From contig NZ_JAMOHZ010000001.1 in assembly GCF_024448715.1 (NCBI RefSeq), positions 124,001-188,000 of the forward strand: a stretch of 64,000 bases of DNA. The letters are read 5' to 3'. The notes below the pieces were generated by a model, which had not been told where the DNA came from, made no database searches, and saw nothing but the letters and a program-made list of their open reading frames with translations. The position numbers were made by a program, and so were the translations under genes. Positions 51,773-56,070 of the stretch are shown here, piece after piece (position 1 is the stretch's first letter; every line of letters starts with the position of its first letter). The DNA is from Stutzerimonas stutzeri. GTDB taxonomy: Bacteria > Pseudomonadota > Gammaproteobacteria > Pseudomonadales > Pseudomonadaceae.

Positions 51773-54037
51773 TTAAACCGCATCGCTCCACCAATCAGGC
51801 AAGAGACGTCTGACTTGTGGACGCGCGAAGCGGTCGTCAATCAGATGAACCACGCCGTGATCGTCCGTGGTGCGGATTACCCGTCCGGCAGCCTGTACGA
51901 CTTTCTGCAAGCCTGGGTAGAGATAGGTGTAGTCGTAGCCAGTGCCAAATAGCTCATCCATCCGCGCTTTCATTTGCTCGTTGACAGGATTGACCTGCGG
52001 CAGGCCCAAGGTGGCGATGAAGGCGCCGATCAGCCGGTCACCGGGCAAGTCAATGCCCTCGGAAAAAGCGCCGCCCAGCACAGCAAAACCGATGCCATGA
52101 CCCTCGCAAGTGAAGCGCGCAAGAAAAGCACTGCGAGCCGTTTCATGCATGCCTCGCGTCTGCTCCCAGAAGGGCAACTCGGGATGCTGAGCCGCCAGCA
52201 GAGCGGTCACTTGCTGCAGATAATCGAAGCTGCTGAAGAATGCCAAGTAGTTGCCGCGACGCTGGTGATACTGCTGTGCAAGCAGGTCGACGATCGCCTG
52301 CAGCGAGGCCGCACGATCCTGATAGCGCGTGGAGATGTGCCGCGCCAGGCGGACCTGCAACTGCTCTGCACGGAACGGCGATTCCACATCGACCCAGACG
52401 TGGTTTGGCGGTACGCCCAAGGTGTCGGAATAGAACCGCTGCGGGTTGAGCGTGGCGGAGAACAGCACACAAGATCTCGCCTCGAGGAAGCGGGGCGCAA
52501 GAAACGGCGCAGGCAAAACATTGCGCAGGCAGAGCACCGAGCTGCGCCCGTTTTGTCGATTCCGTGACGGCAGCAGCGTGCAATCGAACAGCGAATGCGC
52601 GCCGAACAGTTCAGCCAGGCGGCAGAGGTGCATCGCATCGAAATACGCCGACTGCAATCCGGGATCGAGACCTGACGGGTTTTCACCGAGGTAATCGGTG
52701 ATCGCGCTGATGGCTTGCTGCAAAGCGCTGATGAGTTTGTGTGGTAGCTCCGGCTGAACCTGATAGTTATCTTCCTGCAGCCGATGCACATCGCTCCAGC
52801 AGCGCAGAATACGTTCGAGCGGCTTCTTCAGAGCTGCTGGAGCTATCGTCCGTAAAGCTCTGAAATTCCTGATATCTAGTTCCGCGGTATACATGCTTCG
52901 GCCACGTTCGAGCAGATTGTGCGCCTCATCTACCAGCACACTGACACGCCACTGATTGACCAGCGTGAGGCTGTAGAGCAGGGCGCTAAGATCGAAGTAA
53001 TAGTTGTAGTCGCCGACCACCACATCGGCCCAGCGAGCGAGTTCCTGGCTGAGGTAATAAGGGCAGACCTGGTGCGCCAACGCCACTTCGCGCAGCGTCG
53101 CCTGGTCGAGAAACTGGCAGGTGACGGCTTCTGCACGGGCGGCCGGGAGCCGGTCGTAGAAGCCGCGGGCGAGTGGACAGGACTCGCCATGACAGGCTTT
53201 GTCCGGATGCTCACACGCCTTATCGCGAGCGATCAGTTCCAGCACCCGTACCGATGGCGTCTGGGTGTCGTTCTTCAGGCTGGTCAGCGCATCCAGTGCC
53301 AGCTGGCGGCCGGACGTCTTCGCGGCGAGAAAGAACAGTTTGTCCAGCTGCTGGCCTGGAAACGCTTTCAGCTGGGGAAACAGCGTGGCGAGCGTTTTGC
53401 CGATGCCGGTTGGCGCCTGCGCCATGAGGTGCGTGCCGGTACAGGCGGCCTTGTATACCGCCTCTGCGAGTTGCCGTTGACCGCTGCGAAACTCGCCGTA
53501 AGGAAACTTCAGATTGATGAGCGCCTCGTCGCGCTCAGCCCGGTGCGCCAGTTCCTGTTCAGACCAGGCGATGAAGCGCTGACACTGGATTTCGAAGAAG
53601 GCTCGCAACTCTGCGGCGCTAAGGGTTTCGACCAGCAGGGTTTCCTTTTGGCTGACAACATCGAAGTACACCAAGGCAACATTCAGCGATGCCAATCCGC
53701 GCGATTCACAGAGCAGCCAGCCGTAGACCTTGGCCTGGGCCCAATGCAAGTGACGATGGTTTACCGGTTGCCGTGAGAGGTCGCCACGATGGGTCTTTAT
53801 CTCTTCCAGACGATTCTGCGCCGGGTCGTAACCATCGGCGCGGCCGCGGACCAGCAGATCGAGGTACTGTCCTTCCAGCGACACCTCGCGCTCATAGCCT
53901 TCGGCTCGGCGAGCGGTAACTGTGGAATGCCCGGCGATACCTTCAAGCGCGGTGGGTGCAGGGGTGAAGCGCAGGTCCAGATCGCCTTCTTTGGCGGTGA
54001 ACTCGCACAGGGCGCGCACCGCGACCCGATACTTCAA
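51773..54037 (-). CDS. XPD/DinG-type superfamily 2 helicase with N-terminal nuclease-like domain
   Basis: A 754-residue protein. An N-terminal region of about 150 residues has a PD-(D/E)XK-like core (RADGYDPAQNRLEEIKTHRGD). The helicase has Walker A in APTGIGKT, DEAH in VDEAHNLLERG, cysteines that could hold a 4Fe-4S cluster (ACEHPDKACHGESCP and QVCPYY), and motif VI in VVQAAGRVIRTTDD. It is likely a 5'-3' repair helicase. It overlaps the upstream FAN1 gene by 4 nt (ATGA) and should act with it. Confidence 0.88.
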   Translation of the reverse strand: MKYRVAVRALCEFTAKEGDLDLRFTPAPTALEGIAGHSTVTARRAEGYEREVSLEGQYLDLLVRGRADGYDPAQNRLEEIKTHRGDLSRQPVNHRHLHWAQAKVYGWLLCESRGLASLNVALVYFDVVSQKETLLVETLSAAELRAFFEIQCQRFIAWSEQELAHRAERDEALINLKFPYGEFRSGQRQLAEAVYKAACTGTHLMAQAPTGIGKTLATLFPQLKAFPGQQLDKLFFLAAKTSGRQLALDALTSLKNDTQTPSVRVLELIARDKACEHPDKACHGESCPLARGFYDRLPAARAEAVTCQFLDQATLREVALAHQVCPYYLSQELARWADVVVGDYNYYFDLSALLYSLTLVNQWRVSVLVDEAHNLLERGRSMYTAELDIRNFRALRTIAPAALKKPLERILRCWSDVHRLQEDNYQVQPELPHKLISALQQAISAITDYLGENPSGLDPGLQSAYFDAMHLCRLAELFGAHSLFDCTLLPSRNRQNGRSSVLCLRNVLPAPFLAPRFLEARSCVLFSATLNPQRFYSDTLGVPPNHVWVDVESPFRAEQLQVRLARHISTRYQDRAASLQAIVDLLAQQYHQRRGNYLAFFSSFDYLQQVTALLAAQHPELPFWEQTRGMHETARSAFLARFTCEGHGIGFAVLGGAFSEGIDLPGDRLIGAFIATLGLPQVNPVNEQMKARMDELFGTGYDYTYLYPGLQKVVQAAGRVIRTTDDHGVVHLIDDRFARPQVRRLLPDWWSDAV

Positions 54038-55677
54038 GGCGCATCCTCAGCCCACTGCACATAGCAGACGGCGATGGGCATGTCATGACGCAGCGCGAAG
54101 TCGATCCAGCGCTTCTGGTTGTCTTGCAAGCGATCACCGGGGCCTTTTACCTCGATCATCCGGTAGCGCTGCTCGCCGGGCCAGAATTGAATCAAGTCCG
54201 GCAAACCGCTGCGATGGTTGGGCACGTCCCGCAGGATTCGCTGGAAACAAGCCTGTAGATGCGCGGCGGATAAACAGTCGAGCGCCTGCTCAAGCAATTG
54301 GCCGTCGAACAGCCCCCAGCTGACGAATTGCGACTGAACACCGAATTTTTCCTGAAACCTCCGGCGAATGCAGTCGCGGTATTCGCCCGTTCCCAACTTG
54401 GCCAGGCATGCATCGAACAACCCGGCACGCCGGCTGTAGAAATCCGGGCGGGCGAGATCCGCCGGTGCCGCATGGAATGGATGGAAGAAGGCCCCCGAAA
54501 GCGGCGCGAAAATCGCCTCCCAGCACAGCAGGCCAAGAAGCGAATTGATCAAAGCATTTTCAACGTAGTAAACCGGCGCTTCGCTACGAGACAGATGTTC
54601 CCGCACCGCCTGCTCGACACTCATGCCAACCTGGCGGGGCAAAACCAGATCGATGCGCTCCGCTTCGACCACGGCGCTACGGCGTGTAGCGGGCGCGCCG
54701 AGGACACGCCGCAGGCGTGGGAGGATGCGCTGTAGCTGCTGAGCTTCATGTTCGCTTTCAGGCGCGGTTTGCGCCTCACTCGCCAGATGCAAAGCGGCCT
54801 CAGGCTGGCCGCACCGTTCGAGCACTCTGATGGCACGTTCTCGCGCGCCGGGATAGCGATTGACCGCGTGCAGGCGTAACGCCTGCGGCAGATTACCGAT
54901 ACGCTCGTATTGACGACCAATGTTCAGCAGTAGCTTGCCGCGTCGGTTCTCCAACCATTCGTTGGCGTAGGGCGCGCACGGTATATCGGCTAGCACCTCG
55001 TCCAGCATTTCACCCGCCTCGAAACGCTCGCGGCAACGATGCATATATAGATAGGCATCCACGTCGTCGCGGCTGTGAAACGCGCGGGAAGCGGGGGAGA
55101 AGCTCACTTGCTCGTAACGAAAGATGCCCAGATCGGCGAGCACGAATTCGGTCCAGTCCTGATGGATATTGCCGAAGAACATCAGCCGCAGCCGATCGCA
55201 AAAGTCGCTGATGTTCAGGCTGAAGGCCGCTTCGCCGAGCGCTTCGCACCAAGTGGCGAAAGGTTTGGGCTGTGCATGCTCGGTCATCAAGGCCTGTAGC
55301 AGGTCGCTTTTGCGCTGGCTACTGGAGGCCATAGGTCCGAGCACTTTGATCAGCTCGTCCTTCTTAAGCAGACCGAACAGCTGGGCCAAATCCAGCGTCG
55401 GGTTGGCGTCGATCCAACCTTGCTCGACGAGCGCCGCCGCGGCAGCTAGCGGGCAGCCGATCTCGGCATAACGCAACTTACTGGCCCGAAACAAAGATCC
55501 CTTGCGCATCACCATACGAACCAGCAACGCTTGGGATGTCTGCGGCACATCCTTAAAGCTCTGCAAAAATGATCGCTCACGGTCATCCAGCAGATCGCCA
55601 TGGCGTTCACCAACCCAGGCGAGCACCTGCCGAAAGTTTTCAAGGTAATAGAGGGGATTTTCCAAAGCCTGGCGCAT
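54034..55677 (-). CDS. FAN1-type structure-specific nuclease (VRR-NUC domain)
   Basis: A 547-residue bacterial FAN1. The N-terminus ENPLYYLENFRQVLAWVGERHGDLLD and the SAP-like region (FGLLKKDELIKVLGPMASSSQRKSDLLQAL) bind DNA; a helical-repeat region follows; the C-terminal VRR-NUC core has GLPDLIQFWPGEQRYRMIEVKGPGDRLQDNQKRWIDF with the PD-ExK residues. FAN1 unhooks interstrand crosslinks by 5' flap cleavage. A LexA box lies 45 bp upstream. The start ATG 55677 has no obvious ribosome site. Confidence 0.9.
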   Translation of the reverse strand: MRQALENPLYYLENFRQVLAWVGERHGDLLDDRERSFLQSFKDVPQTSQALLVRMVMRKGSLFRASKLRYAEIGCPLAAAAALVEQGWIDANPTLDLAQLFGLLKKDELIKVLGPMASSSQRKSDLLQALMTEHAQPKPFATWCEALGEAAFSLNISDFCDRLRLMFFGNIHQDWTEFVLADLGIFRYEQVSFSPASRAFHSRDDVDAYLYMHRCRERFEAGEMLDEVLADIPCAPYANEWLENRRGKLLLNIGRQYERIGNLPQALRLHAVNRYPGARERAIRVLERCGQPEAALHLASEAQTAPESEHEAQQLQRILPRLRRVLGAPATRRSAVVEAERIDLVLPRQVGMSVEQAVREHLSRSEAPVYYVENALINSLLGLLCWEAIFAPLSGAFFHPFHAAPADLARPDFYSRRAGLFDACLAKLGTGEYRDCIRRRFQEKFGVQSQFVSWGLFDGQLLEQALDCLSAAHLQACFQRILRDVPNHRSGLPDLIQFWPGEQRYRMIEVKGPGDRLQDNQKRWIDFALRHDMPIAVCYVQWAEDAP

Positions 55678-55721
55678 CGAACGTCCGGTTCGGTAGTACG
55701 CGAGCGTAGTCGCCCGTAAGA

Positions 55722-55737
55722 CTGTTTATTTATACAG
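55722..55737 (-). promoter_or_regulatory. LexA (SOS) box upstream of the FAN1-helicase operon
   Basis: CTGTTTATTTATACAG matches the LexA pattern CTGT-N8-ACAG exactly, with an AT-only centre and flanks GA/TT close to the E. coli consensus. It lies 45-60 bp before the FAN1 start, where LexA would cover the promoter. Confidence 0.85.
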
Positions 55738-56070
55738 TTGCAGGCTGATTTGGCAATGATGGGACGATCAATGGCATAACGCGCCGCATTAGCTACGAAC
55801 GACAGCAGCTCAACGAACCGACACTTATTTTGCTCGCCTACTTGGCAAGTAATCCCGCTCAGATCAGGCTATGCACACCGCGGAAGTCAATGACCATCGG
55901 TCAGAATCAGCCGACGGAGAAGGCCTGGATTCGCTGCGACAGCATGCGAACCCATCGTCGTTTCGGTGGTCGTAGCCTCTAGTCAGCCGCTGTCGGCGGG
56001 ACATGCAGGGTATGGCTGTTGACCGATCAGGCGCAGTGCATCAACTGGAACATTCTTTTCAAGGACTCAC
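55738..56070. other. Intergenic region upstream of galU
   Basis: No gene or RNA is supported. It must contain the galU promoter, which I cannot place with confidence. Confidence 0.4.

Follow-up and report, generated by a model that had tools for sequence, protein, structure and literature searches.

Positions 124,001 to 188,000 of a Stutzerimonas stutzeri contig (NCBI RefSeq assembly GCF_024448715.1, contig NZ_JAMOHZ010000001.1), a stretch of 64,000 nucleotides hereafter called the window, carry a gene for a homologue of the nuclease FAN1 followed by a gene for an iron–sulfur (Fe–S) helicase related to DinG. This raises the question of whether the two genes are expressed together in the SOS response and, if so, for what task. 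A two-gene SOS operon, fan1–endoDinG, is probably the best explanation of the locus as a whole. Control by LexA appears very likely from sequence comparison, because the box is conserved in relatives, loci of the alphaproteobacterial type switch to the other operator, genes that have become separated keep boxes of their own, and SOS genes of the same genome share the form of the box.

A nuclease–helicase gene pair behind a LexA-type box

On the minus strand of positions 51773–55737 of the window, a LexA-type box is followed by fan1 and then by the helicase gene endoDinG:

55722–55737, minus strand: LexA box CTGTATAAATAAACAG, likely operator of the fan1–endoDinG operon (exact match; half-sites and position conserved before orthologues)
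55729–55756, minus strand: putative sigma-70 promoter, TTGCCA (55756–55751), 16 nt spacer, TATAAA (55734–55729) (read from the sequence; a weak call)
54034–55677, minus strand: fan1, FAN1 homologue of 547 aa with HTH, SAP and VRR-NUC domains (Pfam, solved P. aeruginosa FAN1, invariant residues)
54034–54037, minus strand: TTGA, in which the fan1 stop overlaps the helicase start by 4 nt (open reading frame list and sequence)
51773–54037, minus strand: endoDinG, XPD/DinG-type Fe–S helicase of 754 aa with an N-terminal PD-(D/E)XK nuclease domain (Pfam, 9kqh match, motif residues, subgroup description)

A preliminary description of this DNA had reported an exact CTGT-N8-ACAG before a FAN1 gene, and the box indeed lies at 55722–55737, separated from the fan1 ATG by 44 bp rather than the 45 bp first given. 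The four-nucleotide overlap that it described is present, and both gene identities held up: the first as FAN1 by its Pfam domains and because it matches the solved P. aeruginosa protein over its full length, and the second as an Fe–S helicase with a PD-(D/E)XK-like N-terminus by Pfam and by invariant cysteines and nuclease residues. The helicase gene starts with TTG. The putative -10 hexamer TATAAA falls within the LexA box, and the promoter of which it is part was not reported by a consensus promoter scanner.

Conservation of the box in the Pseudomonadaceae

Of 248 Pseudomonadaceae genomes, 209 gave a match to fan1 (206 of the 234 of good quality), and 118 loci of the family, some from one genome, were scanned for the box (38 same-genus, 20 named and 60 hand-picked among the matches listed). 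Across the 100 distinct upstream sequences, CTG-N10-CAG was present in 94, and in 92 of these the ten central positions held at least six A/T, compared with a mean of 1.4 (maximum 4) over 20 rounds of dinucleotide shuffling and 1 of 500 windows taken from gene bodies. At 92 of 100 versus 1.4 in the shuffles, the fan1 box is therefore not a product of chance. Counted by genus with the named loci excluded (98 loci, 97 genomes), CTG-N10-CAG was found in 92 loci and its AT-rich form in 90, spanning 13 of 14 genera. The preliminary description had made its proposal depend on the presence of the box in close relatives, where it was found in 41/41 same-genus loci from 40 genomes. The half-sites vary, with CCAG replacing ACAG in many relatives and CTGG replacing CTGT in some, and the helicase gene adjoins fan1 in 113 of the 118 family loci.

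In a later check, 55 previously unscanned loci were scanned; among the 27 whose upstream sequences were new (genomes G065 and G080 contributing two apiece), an AT-rich CTG-N10-CAG was present in 26. In an even draw across the phylum, 17 Pseudomonadaceae genomes gave a fan1 match, and every one of them has the box, among them G002, a divergent genome of the same genus (51% identity). Among the genomes searched, the fan1 nearest to that of P. aeruginosa (G174, loci L093/L148; 91–92% identity) is preceded by the site CTGTATGCATGAACAG.

SOS boxes in the same genome

CTGTATAAATAAACAG is the sole CTGT-N8-ACAG without mismatch in the window, where 20 sites with at most one mismatch were found, the level expected by chance (mean 18.1). 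Genome-wide, exact sites numbered 29 versus 21 for the reversed control, and the bare pattern was accordingly dropped as evidence. Inspection of the exact sites (27 of the 29 fetched), with SOS genes named by NCBIfam on fragments, showed that just six of the 29 have at least six A/T in the eight-base core. These stand before fan1, recA, lexA, one imuA and a radical-SAM gene of the PA0069 family, with the sixth between topB and another open reading frame; a core of eight A/T out of eight is found only before fan1 and that imuA. The fan1 box thus matches the quality of the SOS boxes in its own genome, because the AT-rich core places it among six sites that include those of recA, lexA and imuA.

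The form of the fan1 box precedes lexA, recA, recN and imuA in this genome. For example, CTGTATAAATAGCCAG, a frequent form of the fan1 box in the genus, sits 22 bp before recN. The lexA promoter has two CTG-N10-CAG boxes in 10/10 genomes checked, and in 8/10 these include a CCAG or CTGG half-site, the variants also seen before fan1.

The exact LexA-type boxes at L242 and L045, near topB (DNA topoisomerase III) and upstream of a radical-SAM gene with a putative role in DNA repair (rSAM_link_UDG), point to possible further members of the SOS response. The genome has two imuA-like genes (L243, L245), both preceded by an exact LexA-type box, of which NCBIfam named L245 only.

Operators beyond the family

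Among 398 genomes of the phylum (the fan1 and EndoDinG draws being taken as one set from their shared handles), 55 had a match to fan1 (E 1e-15) and 43 had one to EndoDinG (E 1e-80). Both genes were present in 36 genomes, in 35 of them side by side, while seven had EndoDinG only and 19 fan1 only. The upstream regions of 44 distant loci were scanned, comprising 35 of the 39 non-family places of the phylum draw, five from another search and four from the plasmid collection (where nine of 12 matches were fetched in all, leaving out H7–H9, Vibrio). Class labels were assigned after the scan from kinship and from likeness to two named loci, L160 of Burkholderia and L163 of Bradyrhizobium, and further named records were added later as a check.

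Loci of the betaproteobacterial type carried an AT-rich CTG-N10-CAG 12–58 bp upstream in 7/7 cases (15 of 3500 shuffles at a minimum of seven A/T), as did three further named Burkholderia records (3/3, 18 bp upstream). Loci of the alphaproteobacterial type have the operator appropriate to their own class, with GAAC-N7-GAAC 27–130 bp upstream of fan1 in 6/6 (five loci from four genomes and one Bradyrhizobium plasmid); the motif turned up in 65 of 3000 shuffles, in none of 120 other windows and in none of the 38 other distant loci. Bradyrhizobium sp. 172, the one new upstream sequence of the later check without an AT-rich CTG-N10-CAG, has GAACAAAAATAGAAC, the alphaproteobacterial form, bringing the count to 7/7. 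GAAC-N7-GAAC is the reverse complement of GTTC-N7-GTTC, described in PMC3323433 as the alphaproteobacterial LexA motif. In its treatment of splB, the same paper reasons that a gene is a functional SOS member if it bears LexA sites in two groups whose motifs have diverged, an argument that applies to fan1 as well. Where the two genes lie apart, as in genomes G507, G064, G224 and G245, each has its own CTG-N10-CAG.

The conserved motif could instead be nothing but the -10 element of a promoter, its CTG and CAG ends forming no LexA operator, since TATAAA lies within the site in many loci and the -10 and the box overlap. This explanation is very improbable. Genus g31 has a core other than TATAAA (for example CTGGATGCCTATACAG) and yet retains the half-sites; shuffles that preserve A/T content yield only 1.4 sites per 100; the alphaproteobacterial-type loci bear the other LexA operator; and CTGTATAAATAGCCAG, common before fan1 in the genus, precedes recN in the genome of the window.

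Some distant FAN1 proteins are fused to a C-terminal RNase_T exonuclease domain, as found by Pfam in L224:2907-5063 and L163:3956-6133, both of the alphaproteobacterial type, and as indicated by annotation for L283:2971-5127 and L287:2851-5016. In L224 and L283, the fused gene has a gene for an SOS-associated peptidase (SRAP) directly upstream in the same orientation. In the gammaproteobacterium Pseudoalteromonas xiamenensis, the FAN1 match is covered by a gene annotated 'exonuclease domain-containing protein', and this fused-type gene has a gamma-type box, CTGTTTAAAAAAACAG, 12 bp upstream. From these few cases, the same fused type of FAN1 apparently carries whichever operator suits its class.

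Exceptions and the published record

Several observations, in the genomes and in the literature, weigh against LexA control of the pair or limit its reach. CTG-N10-CAG is missing in 6 of the 98 family loci (L079 and L080, both of genus g38, L082, L088, L131 and L133), and the pass of L097 is doubtful, being counted via a second site, CTGGCCTAGTAATCAG, with its LexA-like site ending in CAC. The g38 genomes concerned, G111 and G099 (L079, L080), have fan1 with neither a box nor an EndoDinG match at E 1e-60, and are a natural uncoupling of the fan1–endoDinG module. Among the split pairs, the endoDinG sites of G224 and G245 are weak (four and five A/T of ten), and in genomes that lack fan1 a site precedes endoDinG in just three of seven. 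The other 31 distant loci have any CTG-N10-CAG in six and an AT-rich one in three (L195, L212, L226), that of L212 sitting inside the gene start; the site was found in one of eight loci of family f24, and Vibrio-type loci have neither box nor helicase. Loci without a box in the later scan (L186, L188, L189, L190, L192, L193) repeat failures of f24 and f26 that were already counted. Conservation of the box before orthologues thus holds in the family and in the betaproteobacterial and alphaproteobacterial types, but not in seven of the eight f24 loci or in the Vibrio-type loci.

The published record for P. aeruginosa belongs with these points. According to PMC12796719 (2026), its LexA regulon comprises 15 genes after Cirz 2006, and PA1865 (FAN1) and PA1866, although induced by UV-C, are not counted in it and belong to none of the three known damage regulons. 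In the same paper, ciprofloxacin induces PA1865 as well, peroxide represses it, and further regulation is said to await discovery. As published, the P. aeruginosa gene thus stands apart from the orthologues studied here, which lie behind a conserved LexA box. The gene order suggests that PA1866 may be the EndoDinG partner of PA1865, and the boxes seen before the fan1 of relatives suggest that a LexA box, if present in P. aeruginosa, would explain the damage induction of both. PA1044 and PA1045, known LexA targets of which PA1045 has been called DinG, were considered as orthologues and ruled out, as PMC12796719 identifies FAN1 as PA1865.

The remaining seven f24 loci (L200, L201, L202, L203, L205, L207 and L208) share ATGGATNNATGA(A/C)CAG at a position that overlaps the likely start codon of fan1; this is perhaps a decayed LexA box.

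Features of the two proteins

The domains FAN1_HTH, FANC_SAP and VRR_NUC were all found in the fan1 product above their curated Pfam cut-offs, giving the combination of HTH, SAP and C-terminal VRR-NUC by which FAN1 proteins are recognised. Four residues of the PD-(D/E)XK active site, E373, D494, E509 and K511, are invariant across seven FAN1 sequences and are presumably the catalytic residues. The product matches the solved P. aeruginosa FAN1 (PA1865; 4r89, 5y7g) over its full length (E ~1e-198), sharing its domain set and its catalytic-type residues.

The helicase contains the Pfam domains DEAD_2 and Helicase_C_2 and, by its family, would be a 5'-3' helicase. Nuclease residues H37, E51, D68, E79 and K81 are invariant in eight sequences, as are cysteines C275, C282, C287 and C325 of the Fe–S motif, and the SF2 motor motifs GIGKT (211–215) and DEAH (370–373) are in place. 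It matches 9kqh, named in the fold search as Finegoldia magna DinG, over its full length, and 9kqh was also the best fold match (TM 0.80) of an AlphaFold model of moderate confidence (mean pLDDT 75.1), which served only for this comparison. The residue of 9kqh aligned with D68 is an alanine, which may reflect an engineered mutant. PMC11981726 describes an EndoDinG subgroup of DinG-like helicases with an N-terminal H/E/D/E/K nuclease motif; the helicase of the window, which shares this motif, the four Fe–S cysteines and the XPD-type helicase core with the subgroup and 9kqh, fits membership by its sequence. A text search of PMC11981726 gave no mention of FAN1, whereas here the gene for EndoDinG accompanies fan1 behind a LexA box.

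Partial precedent for the operator exists in PMC3323433 (2012), which predicts LexA sites before betaproteobacterial 'Helicase c2' genes. These belong to the same helicase superfamily and have the same kind of operator, and they may be EndoDinG; in contrast to the present loci, fan1 is not named in the sections of that paper on these genes, and a text search of the paper gave no mention of VRR. Apart from this 2012 prediction, no title or abstract found among open-licence PMC papers states SOS control of bacterial FAN1. The protein families themselves are already known; new, as far as searched, is the broad conservation of SOS control over fan1, which persists where the LexA operator has changed.

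Possible tasks of the operon

The preliminary description had proposed a dedicated, damage-induced unit for the repair of interstrand crosslinks. The comparison of boxes supports the SOS control in this proposal and the adjacency of the genes in 113 of 118 loci supports the two-gene unit. Crosslink repair is a plausible purpose of the operon, and the chances that it is the main task are about even.

Under this proposal, LexA bound at 55722–55737 would cover the likely -10 and repress fan1–endoDinG, and RecA filaments on damaged or single-stranded DNA would trigger LexA cleavage, so that FAN1 and EndoDinG would be made together. FAN1 would then nick branched DNA close to 5' flaps and beyond crosslinks, and unhook interstrand crosslinks, as reported for the P. 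aeruginosa homologue. EndoDinG would probably open the duplex toward the lesion, providing the substrate for FAN1, and its own nuclease may trim the displaced strand. Human FAN1, a VRR-NUC nuclease, and FANCJ, an XPD-type Fe–S helicase, act in crosslink repair. The two bacterial proteins are of the same two kinds, but the human pair has neither operon nor LexA and EndoDinG adds a nuclease domain, so that the parallel is one of kind and does not imply common descent.

The operon could also, under SOS control, process stalled or broken forks in general, acting on flaps, R-loops or ends after damage of many kinds, with crosslinks as one substrate among several. In favour of this, the inducers published for PA1865, UV-C and ciprofloxacin, are not crosslinkers (PMC12796719), and relatives of DinG act in replication stress. 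No crosslink phenotype for a fan1–endoDinG operon, or for EndoDinG, was found in the literature searched. On the other side, FAN1 is specialised for 5' flaps, and the work on P. aeruginosa FAN1 cited in PMC12796719 (Gwon 2014, Jin 2018) ties PA1865 to crosslink unhooking. General fork processing is a serious alternative, if one given somewhat less than even chances.

Defence against phages or plasmids, with SOS induction as an incidental feature, is very unlikely to be the main role. Nuclease–helicase pairs are common in defence, and the helicase part matches the PADLOC model typeIV_DinG, for DinG of type IV CRISPR systems (E 2e-129), which speaks for defence rather than repair. This match probably reflects the shared helicase family, and the neighbour of the DinG-like helicase in the window is fan1. 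FAN1 itself had no PADLOC match and was not found in a phage collection of 50,697 records, and the presence of fan1 in most good-quality Pseudomonadaceae genomes (206/234) is not patchy. A near-identical, probably mobile segment that holds a broken fan1 and part of endoDinG also favours defence.

This segment (L142:5973-14655 and matching segments in L143–L147) holds another copy of fan1, with about 50% identity to that of the window, and is 99% identical over 7.3–9.8 kb of aligned length in six genomes of two genera. The copy is frameshifted at the identical place in all six genomes and is followed by only the first 196–212 residues of EndoDinG and, in L142, by an open reading frame that appears UvrA-like by eye. 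The segment looks recently mobile.

Implications

Bacterial FAN1 is a structural model for the human crosslink nuclease, and the conserved LexA operator would place it in the SOS response, with EndoDinG named as a conserved helicase–nuclease partner. That the operator changes from one proteobacterial class to another argues that SOS control itself has been under selection, and the induction of PA1865/PA1866, a stated open question, becomes directly testable. More tentatively, FAN1 may be an overlooked core member of the proteobacterial SOS response, kept under LexA through a change of operator and partnered by either EndoDinG or a fused 3'-5' exonuclease, in which case the two could form a dedicated, damage-induced pathway for unhooking crosslinks, a bacterial equivalent of FAN1 and FANCJ.

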